A program made the translations under genes and the position numbers. A stretch of DNA of 64,000 nt from an archaeon (GTDB lineage Archaea > Methanobacteriota_B > Thermococci > Methanofastidiosales > NM3): positions 62,001 through 126,000 of the forward strand of contig RXIG01000001.1 of the NCBI GenBank assembly GCA_004212155.1, read 5' to 3'. The stretch's first letter is position 1. Every line of letters starts with the position of its first letter. The notes under the pieces were generated by a model, which saw only the letters and a program-made list of their open reading frames with translations, was not told where the DNA came from and ran no database searches. Positions 36,929 through 42,346 of the stretch are shown piece by piece.

Positions 36929-37188
36929 GTCAATCCAGGTCTACCTATATAAAACCGTATTTAAACCTTTGCATCGACAAAAAACAACCAATCTCAGCGC
37001 GTTTTGAAAAAGGAAAAATATGGTTGAAAAATCTATTTCATGCTTCAAATGTTTTCTTCCGATGCGGCGGTAAATACTATTTTTCACTTCATATTCTTCG
37101 TTGAATGTCGATTATTTCGTTCATGGACGAGAAGAACTACCCGCATTTTAGAAAAGTATTTAAATCGCTCATAATAAGTGGGGTTGTG

Positions 37189-37617
37189 ATGGTTATGCAG
37201 GAACATATCAATTTTTCCGCTAAACACGGGTCTTGGATCGTAGTGAAAAAGATGGCCCTGGATGAGCACACGGCCGACGAGGATATCGCTCGTATCCTGC
37301 TCTCCATTAGAGAGACGCTCAACAACAAGATCTATGAGTATCTGGGCAAGGACTTCGACCTTGATACGCTCGAGAAATGGGCGGAGGAGATCGTGCCGAG
37401 CGGCCGGCTCAGCGAGGAAAAGATCGCCGAGGCCCTCAAGACCCTCAAATCGCCAAAGACGACCAAGCGGCTCAAGGAGCTCACGACCGAGAAGCAAAAG
37501 CTCGAGGTCTACAGGGGCCTTTTGACCGAACTGGTCCTGCAACGCCTCAAACTTAACACGCTCCAGCTCAAGGCACTCGAAAAGTACGTTGACAATAAGA
37601 ACAGGCGATTAGAATGA
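37189..37617 (+). CDS. Small helical protein of unknown function, first gene of the OPT operon
   Basis: 142 residues, charged, almost all alpha-helical with heptad-like stretches (about 85-142), no membrane span. I do not recognise it. The TATA box TATTTAAAT (37157-37165) is about 28 nt upstream of the ATG at 37189, so longer versions of the frame (from 37105) would start before the promoter. A second ATG lies at 37195. It overlaps the OPT transporter gene by 4 nt and leads a four-gene unit. Confidence 0.6.
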   Translation: MVMQEHINFSAKHGSWIVVKKMALDEHTADEDIARILLSIRETLNNKIYEYLGKDFDLDTLEKWAEEIVPSGRLSEEKIAEALKTLKSPKTTKRLKELTTEKQKLEVYRGLLTELVLQRLKLNTLQLKALEKYVDNKNRRLE

Positions 37618-39353
37618 GGACACCCGAGGAGAGCGGCGGCAGCGGGTTTGGCGTACGGTCAGTGCTGCTAGCAGTCGCGCTCTCCTTGTTTCTTCTTTCC
37701 ACTTCGATCTATATCGCATTACGGCTCGGTGCGCTGCCGTGGCCAATTATATTTTCAGTCATCGTCTCCGCAGGCATACTGAAGCTGGTCTCCCGTTCGT
37801 CTCCTGCCAGCGAACACGAGGTCAACGTTGCGCAGGCAGGCGGAACGATCGGTGGTCTCATGGCGTCTGCCGTCTCGTTCACCATTCCCGGTATCCTTTT
37901 CCTGCGGGACTACATGGACGTCGAGATATCGATGCTCGACCCCTATCTTCTTGCAGCGGTGTGTGTGACGGGGGGTGTGCTTGGCGTACTGCTCTCGATC
38001 CCCCTGCGACGCACGTTCGTCGATGAGGAGAAACTACCGTATCCTTCCGGCGCGGCGGGTGCAGAGATACTCAAGGCGCAGATGCGCGGAGGCAGGGGCG
38101 CCCTGCTCATCGCGTTCGTCGTGCTCATGGCAGGCCTGTTCGCCCTTGCGCGCGACCTTTACATACCCATGGGCATCACCGCAACGAGCCTTGCGACGTA
38201 TGGTATCTACCTGACGTTTTCCGCGATGCCGCTTGGCGTCGGCGTCGGGTACATCCTCGGGCCACGCATATCGATCAACTCGTGGTTTACCGGTGCCGTC
38301 GCTGGCTGGATCGTCATCATCCCCCTTCTGGTCATGCGGGACTGGTTGGGGAGCAATGCCATATCATTCGTGCAAAACGCCGGTCTCGGCATCGTGCTTG
38401 GCAGCGGTGTGGGATTTTTCGTCGCCTATGTGCTTCCCCGTATGCGCCGCATCTTCGCACCGCTTTTCAAGTGGGAAGGACCTTGGTACTTCAAGCTCTC
38501 CCCGTTCTTCTCCTTGGTATCCCTTGCGGTGCTCATCGCCATAGGGGTGCCGATACTTGCCACCATCATCGCCGTTGCGGGCGTCTGGGTCATGACGACC
38601 ATCGCTGCGCGCATGACGGGCGAGACGAACATCGACCCCCTTGAACAGTTCGGCATCATCGTCGGACTCGTGGCGCTGGGGACATACTCTGCCATCTCGT
38701 ATGAACTATCATACATATCTGCGTTTATCATCGTGACATTCGTCGCAGTCGCCGCGGCCGTCGCTGGCGACATCGGGCATGACTACAAGTCTGCCTACAT
38801 CATCGGCACGAAGCCCAAGGACATCGTGAAGGTCGACCTCATATGCGCCGTCATCGTTGGCATTGCAGCGCCGTTCATACTTAACATCGTGCTCAATGGA
38901 TACGCCGACGTCCTCTTCACCGCACAGATGCCGGCACCTCAGGCTCAGCTTGTGGCTGGAAGCATCTTCGGGTTTGCCCACCCTAACGCGTTCTACGCAG
39001 GATTTGGCATCGCGTTCATCTATGAGGCCATCGTACGCGCGTTCAAGCGCGACGTGCCCTTTTCCGCCATGGCATTTGGCATCGGCATGTTCCTTGGCCT
39101 CACGCTTGCATTGCTCCTTTTCATCGGCGGCATCATACGTCTTTTCATTCGTCATCGCGGACCGGACCATGAGCACACGGGCATCCTTGTCTCGGCAGGG
39201 CTGATGGGCGGGGAAGGGATCGCAGGGTTCCTCACTGCCGCCCTCTTCGTCATGGGCGTTGCCATGACCACCGCCTCGCATGCCATGATCGTCGTATTCG
39301 GACTGGCCTTCGTGCTCGTGTTGATATACACGGTCTGGAACAGGAGGTGGTAA
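37614..39353 (+). CDS. OPT-family oligopeptide transporter
   Basis: 579 residues with about 14-16 membrane spans. The N-terminal part with YIALRLGALPWPIIFSV and NVAQAGGTIGGLMASAV matches the bacterial and archaeal OPT family, which imports small peptides or metal chelates by proton symport. It overlaps the upstream gene by 4 nt (ATGA) and the downstream kinase-like gene by up to 7 nt. The neighbouring M29-type aminopeptidase suggests that imported peptides are trimmed in the cytoplasm. Confidence 0.9.
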   Translation: MRTPEESGGSGFGVRSVLLAVALSLFLLSTSIYIALRLGALPWPIIFSVIVSAGILKLVSRSSPASEHEVNVAQAGGTIGGLMASAVSFTIPGILFLRDYMDVEISMLDPYLLAAVCVTGGVLGVLLSIPLRRTFVDEEKLPYPSGAAGAEILKAQMRGGRGALLIAFVVLMAGLFALARDLYIPMGITATSLATYGIYLTFSAMPLGVGVGYILGPRISINSWFTGAVAGWIVIIPLLVMRDWLGSNAISFVQNAGLGIVLGSGVGFFVAYVLPRMRRIFAPLFKWEGPWYFKLSPFFSLVSLAVLIAIGVPILATIIAVAGVWVMTTIAARMTGETNIDPLEQFGIIVGLVALGTYSAISYELSYISAFIIVTFVAVAAAVAGDIGHDYKSAYIIGTKPKDIVKVDLICAVIVGIAAPFILNIVLNGYADVLFTAQMPAPQAQLVAGSIFGFAHPNAFYAGFGIAFIYEAIVRAFKRDVPFSAMAFGIGMFLGLTLALLLFIGGIIRLFIRHRGPDHEHTGILVSAGLMGGEGIAGFLTAALFVMGVAMTTASHAMIVVFGLAFVLVLIYTVWNRRW

Positions 39354-40180
39354 TCATTATCATAGGCATAGATATAGGGGGCACGACGACGGATGCCATC
39401 GCGCTTAGCGACGGAAAGATAGAGGCGCTCATATCCGTTGAGGCGGGCGATCCCGTCACTGCAGCGGCAGGGGCACTCGGAAAGATGATGGAGACGCTTG
39501 GCGCCTCACTCGACGAGGTCGAGTACATTGCATCGACAGGTGTGGGCACGGGTCACCTTGGCGACCGCCTCCTGGGCATACCGCTCGTCAAGGTAGACGA
39601 ATTCACATCGATCGGCACCGCGGGAGCCTACCTTTCTGGCATCGACAAGGCAATCGTGGTAAGCATGGGCACCGGCACGGCGCTGGTACGTGTCGACGGG
39701 GACTCGATATCCCACTGGGGCGGTACTGGTGTTGGGGGCGGCACGCTGCTTGGCCTCTCAAAGCTCATTCTCAACATCTCCACTATCTCGATACTCACGA
39801 AAAAGGCAGAGCACGGCTCCCTGGGTACGATCGACCTAACGGTGGGTGACATCTCAGGGGGTCCGCTCAACGGTCTGCCAGCCTCGGCAACGGCTTCCAA
39901 CTTCGGAAAGGTCGCCGATGATGCAAGCGATGCTGACAAGGCGCTTGCCCTCATCAATCTCGTATGCCAGACGATCGGTGTCATGGCCATGTTTGCAGCG
40001 CGCGCCAATTCGTTTAGCGACATCGTCCTCACGGGCAAGCTCACCAGCATACCGCAGGTCAAAGATGTCATTGAAGGTGTGGGCAAACTTTTTGATGTAC
40101 GCTTCCATATACCAACTCATGCGGATTACGCCACGGCCATTGGCGCCGCCATCCATCTTTACAACAAGGAGAGGAAATGA
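39347..40180 (+). CDS. Type II pantothenate kinase-like protein (ASKHA fold)
   Basis: About 274-277 residues. GIDIGGTTTDAI (phosphate-1 loop), VSMGTGTALVRVDGDS (phosphate-2) and HWGGTGVGGGTLLGLSKL are characteristic of type II pantothenate kinases (CoaW and eukaryotic PANK); LTGKLTSIPQVKDVI near residue 225 contacts adenosine. Archaea usually phosphorylate pantoate instead, so the true substrate could differ. The start is uncertain: the GTG at 39347 lies inside a near-perfect ribosome site (AGGAGGTGG, 39342-39350), whereas an ATT at 39356 has the right spacing and gives a family-like N-terminus (IIGIDIGGT). It overlaps the M29 gene by 4 nt. Confidence 0.8.
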   Translation: MVIIIIGIDIGGTTTDAIALSDGKIEALISVEAGDPVTAAAGALGKMMETLGASLDEVEYIASTGVGTGHLGDRLLGIPLVKVDEFTSIGTAGAYLSGIDKAIVVSMGTGTALVRVDGDSISHWGGTGVGGGTLLGLSKLILNISTISILTKKAEHGSLGTIDLTVGDISGGPLNGLPASATASNFGKVADDASDADKALALINLVCQTIGVMAMFAARANSFSDIVLTGKLTSIPQVKDVIEGVGKLFDVRFHIPTHADYATAIGAAIHLYNKERK

Positions 40181-41127
40181 TGCTCAAAGAGGCTTGTAAG
40201 AGGATCCTCACCACCTCAATGGGGGTGCAGGAGGACGAGACGGTTTTGATAGTGACTGATACCGAGTTGCACGACATCGGTGCGACGCTGTTTGAAACGG
40301 CACGACCGTTGTGCCGTGAGGCGTTGCTCATGACGATGAATCCACGTTCGTCGCATGGTGAGGAACCGCCCCCTGCGATTGCCGCCGCCATGCAGCATGC
40401 CCATGTCATACTCATGCCCACCGTCATGTCGCTTTCCCATACCAAAGCACGTGGCGATGCATGCACACGCGGAGCACGCGTGGGGTCGATGCCTCATGTC
40501 ACGAGGGAGATGCTTGCACGCATGTCCAAGGCCGACTTCAATGAGATCGAACGGTATGCGAACACGTGGGCAGACCTTCTTTCAAAGTCATCGATGGTGC
40601 GCATCGTCTCGAAAAATGGCACAGACCTCTCCTTCAGCATCGCCGGCAGGCCCGGCAACGCCGATGGCGGCGTCTTTACCCACAAGGGCGCGTTTGGCAA
40701 CATTCCCTCTGGCGAGGCGTTCGTCGCACCCGTGGAGGGCACTGCCAACGGGACGCTCGTCATCGACGGGTCGATCGATGTGGTGGGCATCGTGCAGTCC
40801 CCCATCGTCATTACCGTCAAGGACGGATTGGCAGTGACGTTTGAGGGCGGTCCGGATGCAAAGAAGCTTGAAGAGGCCCTCATGAAGTTCGGCCCCGAGG
40901 CACGAAACATTGCCGAGCTTGGCATTGGCATCAATTCGGCCGCAACGCTTTCAGGCAACACCCTTGAGGATGAGAAGATTAAGGGTACGGTGCATATCGC
41001 CCTTGGCGACAATTCCACGTTCGGGGGTACCGTCTCAGCGCCTTCGCACCTCGATGGGCTCATCATGAATCCCACGATGTATCTCGATGGCGAGATGGTA
41101 ATCGAGGACAAGAAATGGAAGATTTGA
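40177..41127 (+). CDS. M29-family aminopeptidase-like protein
   Basis: 316 residues. GAFGNIPSGEAFVAPVEGTANG (in part; about 173-190) and the C-terminal GTVHIALGDNSTFGG...SHLDGLI match the metal-binding blocks of M29 leucyl aminopeptidases (AmpS/AmpT), with candidate ligands in GEAF, HIALGDN and HLD. It is shorter than typical bacterial M29 enzymes, mainly in the N-terminal half. AAGGAGAGG precedes the ATG. It is the last gene of the operon after an OPT peptide transporter and a kinase, so it may hydrolyse imported peptides. Confidence 0.75.
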   Translation: MMLKEACKRILTTSMGVQEDETVLIVTDTELHDIGATLFETARPLCREALLMTMNPRSSHGEEPPPAIAAAMQHAHVILMPTVMSLSHTKARGDACTRGARVGSMPHVTREMLARMSKADFNEIERYANTWADLLSKSSMVRIVSKNGTDLSFSIAGRPGNADGGVFTHKGAFGNIPSGEAFVAPVEGTANGTLVIDGSIDVVGIVQSPIVITVKDGLAVTFEGGPDAKKLEEALMKFGPEARNIAELGIGINSAATLSGNTLEDEKIKGTVHIALGDNSTFGGTVSAPSHLDGLIMNPTMYLDGEMVIEDKKWKI

Positions 41128-41191: not shown

Positions 41192-42346
41192 ATGGCAGAA
41201 TATGTGTTTACTTCTGAGTCTGTGTGCGAGGGACATCCCGATAAGGTTGCAGACCAAATATCTGACAGCGTCCTCGATGCGCTCATCGCTAAGGATCCGC
41301 AATCACGTGTTGCGTGCGAGACGCTCGTCACCACCGGCATGGCGTTTGTTGCCGGCGAGATCACCACCGATGCTTACGTTGATATTCCCCGTATCGTTCG
41401 AAACACGATCAAAGGAATAGGATATACTGATGCACGAATGGGATTCGACTACCAGACGTGCGCCGTCGTTACATCGATCGATGAGCAATCGCCCGACATC
41501 GCCATGGGCGTGAATCAGACCGCCGAGCGAGAACAGGGGGCCGGGGACCAGGGCATCATGTTCGGCTATGCGTGCAACGAGACCGAGAGCCTCATGCCCC
41601 TCTCGATATCGCTTGCGCACAAGTTGGCACAGCGCCTCTCAGAGACGAGGAAGAACCTCGAGCTCCCGTTCCTGCGTCCCGACGGGAAGACACAGGTAAG
41701 CGTCATCTACAAGAATGGCGTTCCGGACCGTATCTCGACGATCGTCATCGCGGCACAGCATGATTCTAAGGCGCCAAACGAGGAGATACGAAAGGGCATC
41801 ATCGAGAATGTCATCGAACCTGTCGTGCCAAAAGAGCTTCTCAAGAACACAGACTACCACATCAACGCCACCGGCCGCTTCGTACTCGGGGGACCGCTCG
41901 CAGACTGCGGATTGACCGGCCGAAAGATCATAGTCGACACGTACGGCGGCGTGGGAAGCCACGGTGGAGGATGTTTTTCTGGCAAGGATCCAAGCAAGGT
42001 CGACCGTTCGGCATCCTACATGGCGCGCCACATCGCAAAGAACATCGTGGCAGCAGAGCTTGCCGACAGCTGCGAGGTGCAGCTTGCCTACGCGATCGGC
42101 GTGGCAGACCCTGTTTCAGTATATATCGATTGCCGAGACACGAACAAGGTACCAGTTGAGAGGATGTGTTCCATGATCCGCGAGGTCTTTGACATGCGCC
42201 CGCGCGCCATCATCGACTATCTCGATCTCAAACGCCCGATCTACAAGAAGACAGCGGCATATGGTCACTTCGGCCGCAGCGATCCGGACTTCACATGGGA
42301 AAGCACGTCGCGCGCCGACGAGCTTCGGGACCTTGCAGGGCTCTAA
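41192..42346 (+). CDS. metK: S-adenosylmethionine synthetase, bacterial/eukaryotic type
   Basis: 384 residues. [20 protein letters not shown] (6-25), [12 protein letters not shown] (about 117) and [17 protein letters not shown] (about 260) are classic MetK motifs. Most archaea use a divergent archaeal MAT family instead, so this gene is probably an import from bacteria. It makes SAM from methionine and ATP. The ATG at 41192 has GGTGT upstream. Monocistronic, 64 bp after the M29 gene. Confidence 0.96.

Follow-up and report, generated by a model that had tools for sequence, protein, structure and literature searches.

An archaeal operon linking an OPT-family transporter to a type II pantothenate-kinase-like protein: a candidate pantetheine salvage system in Methanofastidiosales

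A run of four overlapping genes in an archaeon of the order Methanofastidiosales encodes a DUF2666 protein, an OPT-family transporter, a type II pantothenate kinase (PanK)-like protein and a short M29-like metalloprotein, and is considered here as a possible salvage operon for a precursor of coenzyme A (CoA). The run was found in a 64,000-nucleotide stretch (GenBank assembly GCA_004212155.1, contig RXIG01000001.1, positions 62,001 to 126,000 of the forward strand), referred to below as the window, of a genome of 1.49 Mb in 28 contigs that is about 90% complete. It occupies positions 37189-41127 of the + strand, and successive genes overlap by 4, 7 and 4 nt, which bears out what an earlier note on this DNA had read there. 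The features, in window coordinates, are as follows.

About 37156 to 37165, + strand: TATA-box-like TATTTAAATC, about 25 nt upstream of the first gene, by resemblance to the consensus only
37189 to 37617, + strand: DUF2666 protein, 142 aa, first gene (PF10869)
37614 to 39353, + strand: OPT-family transporter, 579 aa (PF03169)
39347 to 40180, + strand: type II PanK-like protein, 277 aa, GTG start (NF009842, PF03630)
40177 to 41127, + strand: short M29-like metalloprotein, 316 aa (PF02073)

The identities proposed earlier for the two central proteins agree with profile searches. The transporter scores 151.7 bits against the OPT family PF03169 (cut-off 25.8) and 116.7 bits against the prokaryotic OPT equivalog TIGR00733, under its cut-off of 182.5. 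The kinase scores 237.3 bits against the type II PanK model NF009842 (cut-off 234) and 72.7 bits against the Fumble family PF03630 (cut-off 28.5), and its nearest solved proteins by profile search are Staphylococcus aureus PanK-II and human PANK1-3. The catalytic Glu of these enzymes (E70 in S. aureus, E138 in PANK3) corresponds to E85 of the kinase and is retained in all aligned relatives.

Gene order was compared across 115 genomes of the phylum, sorted into families f1 to f4, which belong to the window's own order, and a large family f5, presumably Thermococcales. The window's family is f1; f2 includes genomes G005, G008, G011 and G013, and f3 comprises G006 and G009. The survey of gene order that the earlier note had proposed shows the order to be conserved, as it fits all 4 f1 genomes in which the locus was found. 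G002 and G004 carry the complete operon, followed by MetK-PUA-IDI2-RNaseJ-like genes, and G003 has it divided by a contig break into DUF2666-OPT-kinase on C39 and M29-like-MetK and further genes on C223, both halves of which fit. In f2 the order is DUF2666-OPT-kinase; the contig of G005 ends 26 nt past the kinase, and G008 carries the OPT-kinase pair with no M29-like gene after the kinase. The G008 transporter is a different paralogue, with 30% identity to the window's OPT as against 58% in G005, and orthologues of the window's OPT (58-72% identical) occur only in f1, G005 and G009. In both f3 genomes the kinase gene is separate from OPT and immediately follows the gene for phosphopantetheine adenylyltransferase (PPAT), which is above its NCBIfam cut-off. 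The kinase is absent from f4 and f5, where weak partial matches (about 412 aa) lie far under the cut-off. Across the order, OPT and kinase occur together in 7 genomes, the kinase alone in 1, OPT alone in 0 and neither in 13, these counts being uncorrected for the relatedness of the genomes.

The four-gene grouping exceeds chance. That the four genes are only transcribed together and share no function is hardly credible, since the overlaps and the gene order are held in f1 at 54-72% protein identity and the OPT-kinase linkage persists in f2, where OPT is represented by two different paralogues, even though the kinase and OPT genes of G009 are both present but unlinked and DUF2666 occurs phylum-wide without OPT. 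For the DUF2666 gene by itself the case is different. The earlier note had called this first gene unknown; it scores 124.8 bits against PF10869, above the curated cut-off, and the family is found in 106 of the 115 genomes, mostly in a two-domain form (Thermococcales and f4) that shows no linkage to OPT. Several Thermococcales have it close to DUF92, an arrangement also seen in the window. Its predicted model is all-helical with low confidence (predicted local distance difference test, pLDDT, 66). Being near-universal in the phylum, and two-domain and unlinked elsewhere, DUF2666 is unlikely as a working fourth part and is probably an old neighbour. Its longest open frame begins at 37105, and the ATG at 37189 given in the earlier note is preferred because of the TATA-like sequence listed above.

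The genes of the canonical archaeal CoA route, namely pantoate kinase (PoK), phosphopantothenate synthetase (PPS), CoaBC and PPAT, are all present in the window's genome. PoK and PPS, whose presence the earlier note had suggested checking, form an overlapping pair beside CoaBC in one cluster; PPS scores 257.6 bits (cut-off 227), and PoK matches its family with 117-118 bits to two lineage-specific models, under their strict equivalog cut-offs. The kinase is thus no substitute for a missing PoK, and the operon would therefore provide an additional entry to CoA. The window's genome and nearly all others of its order lack ketopantoate hydroxymethyltransferase, as do the Methanocaldococcus jannaschii and Methanosarcina controls. 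An in-frame TAG in the genome's PPAT is merely that gene's own stop. Directly after the PoK-PPS pair (L002:613-1191, contig C1) lies a gene for a small membrane protein that weakly resembles the S component of energy-coupling factor (ECF) transporters and is possibly part of a pantoate or pantothenate transporter.

The sister families f2 and f3 differ from this pattern. PPS (PF02006) is found in 12 of the 15 f1 and f4 genomes as against none of the six f2 and f3 genomes, and CoaBC (PF04127) in 14 of the 15, including all f1, as against none of the six. The chance that CoaBC is missing from all six through incompleteness (completeness 69 to 92%) is about 3.5e-6. PPAT is retained in five of the six, with no close PPAT found in G008, and these lineages appear to use CoA still, because one f3 contig encodes a 2-oxoacid:ferredoxin oxidoreductase subunit. 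A proposed importer, a kinase and PPAT without phosphopantothenoylcysteine synthetase (PPCS) and decarboxylase (PPCDC) make up the gene set of G005 (f2) and G009 (f3). Phosphopantothenate is a dead end without CoaBC, and the f2 and f3 kinase should therefore act on pantetheine; a kinase step leading straight to PPAT, with no CoaBC, is understandable if the kinase acts on that substrate.

We therefore hold it probable, with modest confidence, that the OPT-kinase core imports and phosphorylates pantetheine for CoA. The further proposal, that this archaeal operon is dedicated to the import and phosphorylation of pantetheine and that f2 and f3 have lost CoaBC and are wholly dependent on scavenged pantetheine, is more tentative and open to some doubt. 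The earlier note had envisaged a route in which an imported conjugate is cleaved and one product, a pantothenate-like or other amide compound, is phosphorylated. Its importer and its kinase acting on a pantothenate-like compound are retained; pantetheine rather than a generic amide is indicated, because sister families without CoaBC keep the kinase and PPAT, and cleavage between import and phosphorylation is unneeded, as G008 has the OPT-kinase pair without an M29-like gene.

The main rival is plain salvage of vitamin B5, in which OPT would import either pantothenate itself or a pantothenoyl peptide for the M29-like enzyme to cleave; the 4'-phosphopantothenate made by the kinase would enter the archaeal route at CoaBC. 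The score of the kinase above the type II PanK equivalog cut-off (the f2 and f3 orthologues, at 225-230 bits, are just under it) and the presence of CoaBC throughout f1, the window's genome included, are consistent with this, as are two kinds of neighbourhood: a Nanohalarchaeota metagenome-assembled genome (MAG) carries a PanC-CoaBC-kinase operon of overlapping genes (L065:3789-6560), with PanC and CoaBC above their equivalog cut-offs, and an ECF S component lies directly upstream of the kinase in four Clostridia. However, the product would be unusable in f2 and f3, where CoaBC is absent from all six genomes, and most bacterial relatives already hold a kinase for pantothenate, the type III PanK CoaX being present in 25 of the 35 other kinase-bearing genomes. 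In addition, the Arg that binds pantothenate (R113 in S. aureus), which in human PANK3 hydrogen-bonds pantothenate as Arg207 (PMC8366970), is His123 in the kinase, and a His stands at this position in every aligned clade member. Plain pantothenate salvage is therefore considered unlikely. The substitution was also tried as a switch from pantothenate to pantetheine, an idea that was dropped because the PanC-CoaBC-linked Nanohalarchaeota kinase and all bacterial relatives have the same His.

In the kinase tree, the archaeal members, including those from Nanohalarchaeota, Aenigmatarchaeota and Thermoproteota MAGs, form one clade (100/96) that sits beside Bacteroidota (98/92 jointly) on long branches, and this placement suggests that the archaeal kinases stem from a single transfer out of bacteria. 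Nanohalarchaeota have been listed among the archaea without PoK and PPS (PMC6650551), and the PanC-CoaBC-kinase operon is a candidate for that group's missing CoA entry route. As a whole the clade looks like one of pantothenate/pantetheine kinases, with pantetheine activity as the common need, and the kinase of the operon is proposed to phosphorylate pantetheine (and pantothenate).

The fourth protein scores 53.4 bits against Peptidase_M29 (PF02073, cut-off 27), a match covering residues 120-280 only, and at 316 aa falls short of the full M29 fold of about 410 residues. Its M29 metal ligands E180, E247, E266, H273, H291 and D293 are invariant among 13 relatives. The ligands of AmpT we take to be E250, E316, E340, H345 and an HxD pair, the last of which was matched by motif, beyond the printed AmpT alignment. 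The predicted model (pLDDT 94) has its best fold match in NicX (7cn3, template modelling score, TM, 0.84), followed by the M29 aminopeptidases PepS, AmpS and AmpT (TM 0.63-0.71), and in sequence, too, the protein is nearest to NicX and then to M29. NicX is a 2,5-dihydroxypyridine dioxygenase with a 2-His-1-Asp iron site. This site is not reproduced here, as the NicX His of the ISHIGWG stretch aligns with E247, although H291 and D293 are kept. Despite the best fold match, a NicX-type dioxygenase was rejected, as the metal ligands follow the M29 pattern, and a two-metal hydrolase appears likelier because every M29 metal ligand is invariant in the relatives. The protein thus shares the fold and all metal ligands of the M29 aminopeptidases but is about 90 residues shorter, and is closer in fold to NicX but without its residue pattern. 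Of the earlier label "M29 aminopeptidase", the family match and the ligands hold, whereas "aminopeptidase" is not established for so short a protein with NicX as its nearest fold.

The closest orthologues of the M29-like protein lie in seven Thermococcales genomes, with a different OPT alongside in six and no PanK. OPT and M29-like proteins thus pair twice, which fits trimming of peptide-like cargo; the gene is, however, absent at the G008 locus, and the M29-like role is the weakest step of the proposed route. The same Thermococcales genes could favour another explanation, that the operon serves to take up and break down peptides or amides and has a kinase acting on an unrelated small molecule, the likeness of this kinase to PanK being one of fold only (ASKHA/BadF group). 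The His in place of the conserved Arg is compatible with this, as is the kinase of Oscillibacter and others, near which no CoA genes were recognised. However, the constant partner of OPT in f2 is the kinase and not the M29-like gene, and CoA genes lie next to the kinase in f3, Nanohalarchaeota and Clostridia, which makes this explanation quite improbable.

In the preferred pantetheine route, the OPT transporter would take up pantetheine, probably bound in a mixed disulfide to a small peptide-like thiol, and reduction of the disulfide in the cytoplasm would follow. Pantetheine would then be converted by the type II PanK-like kinase to 4'-phosphopantetheine, from which PPAT and dephospho-CoA kinase would make CoA, so that PoK, PPS and CoaBC would be bypassed. 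The M29-like enzyme would most likely trim the peptide partner. In the window's genome, salvage would run in parallel with the complete archaeal route, and in f2 and f3 it would be the sole visible way to 4'-phosphopantetheine. Gene order, protein families and the distribution of pathway genes are directly observed, and we infer the substrate, the direction of transport, the disulfide form and the M29-like role.

This scheme resembles salvage in Saccharomyces cerevisiae, where the OPT-family protein Opt1 brings in pantetheine and phosphopantetheine in the form of mixed disulfides with glutathione and renders PPCS and PPCDC dispensable; type I and type II PanKs are stated to phosphorylate pantetheine also (Wedman et al., 2025, PMC12406275). 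There, too, an OPT-family importer and a PanK feed PPAT and bypass PPCS and PPCDC. The proposed archaeal system differs in being an operon, in its OPT subfamily and in the extra M29-like protein, and its relatives in f2 and f3 have lost CoaBC altogether. By analogy, the operon is a candidate for working by the same logic as the Opt1 route, and its OPT is proposed to import pantetheine or its mixed disulfide. A second parallel is found in Bacillus subtilis, where cysteinopantetheine enters through a cystine importer and the kinase required is CoaA, not CoaX, which cannot use pantetheine (PMC11487621). There as well, a pantetheine mixed disulfide is imported and a kinase able to use both pantothenate and pantetheine comes next, but the parts assigned here to OPT and a type II-like kinase fall to the ABC importer TcyJKLMN and to CoaA. 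S. aureus PanK-II shares the NF009842 family, the catalytic Glu and the Gly-rich loops with the operon kinase, but has Arg where the whole clade has His, and the profile match between them is only about 89 bits; the archaeal protein is, moreover, a second kinase in a genome whose de novo route is complete. The PanK of Picrophilus torridus is reportedly of the type I group and compensates for the lack of PoK and PPS, both of which are present in the window's genome. It is likewise an archaeal PanK outside the PoK route (cited in PMC6650551).

Several points weigh against pantetheine salvage. The window's genome, with PoK, PPS, CoaBC and PPAT, has no need of an extra CoA entry. No residue separating pantetheine from pantothenate use was found in the kinase, and the Nanohalarchaeota operon shows that the clade can serve as pantothenate kinase. 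G011 and G013 (f2), which lack CoaBC, also lack the kinase and OPT, which may be explained solely by partial assembly (88% and 69%), and in G006 (f3) the kinase adjoins PPAT but OPT was not found. Finally, yeast Opt1 is a distant OPT member and, according to its authors, has no orthologues outside yeast (PMC12406275).

Pantetheine uptake was called unresolved until 2024-2025, and the only known importers are yeast Opt1 and the B. subtilis cystine transporter. A limited literature search found no published description of an OPT-kinase operon in archaea. The conserved operon offers a testable prokaryotic candidate for a pantetheine importer. If the proposal is true, this OPT would be the first outside yeast with a link to CoA precursors, and the kinase a natural dedicated pantetheine kinase. 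Such salvage would explain CoA synthesis in archaea without CoaBC and predicts cross-feeding on pantetheine, and the naturally variant PanK, with His for Arg, is offered for work on substrate choice.

The M29-like orthologues of Thermococcales lie in an operon of their own, found at the following loci.

L182:2453-9489 (G022), and also L183, L184, L185, L186, L187 and L188: racemase-DUF917-DUF1177-AroM-M29-like-OPT operon

It encodes an Asp/Glu racemase, DUF917/S-Me-THD, DUF1177, AroM, the M29-like protein, OPT (in 6 of 7), a second M29-like protein and sometimes an M20 peptidase. Its DUF917/S-Me-THD gene is thiohydantoin desulfurase-like, under the cut-off, and the operon looks like an undescribed route for uptake and breakdown of amides or thiohydantoins; a literature search on the DUF1177-AroM-OPT operon returned unrelated work only.

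Further genes adjoin the kinase loci of the sister families. In G008 (L019:2649-3777), genes for a P-loop kinase (weak PRK08356 match) and a HAD phosphatase lie directly upstream of DUF2666-OPT-kinase. The f3 PPAT-kinase pairs (L017:4386-5901 and L016:7032-8611) are followed by genes for a calcineurin-like phosphoesterase and a HAD phosphatase, which may act in 4'-phosphopantetheine or CoA turnover. In the window, a 64-nt A+T-rich gap separates the last operon gene from metK (41192-42346), whose product is 80% identical to that of G002 and, at 59-63% identity to Clostridia MetK, looks bacterial-type.

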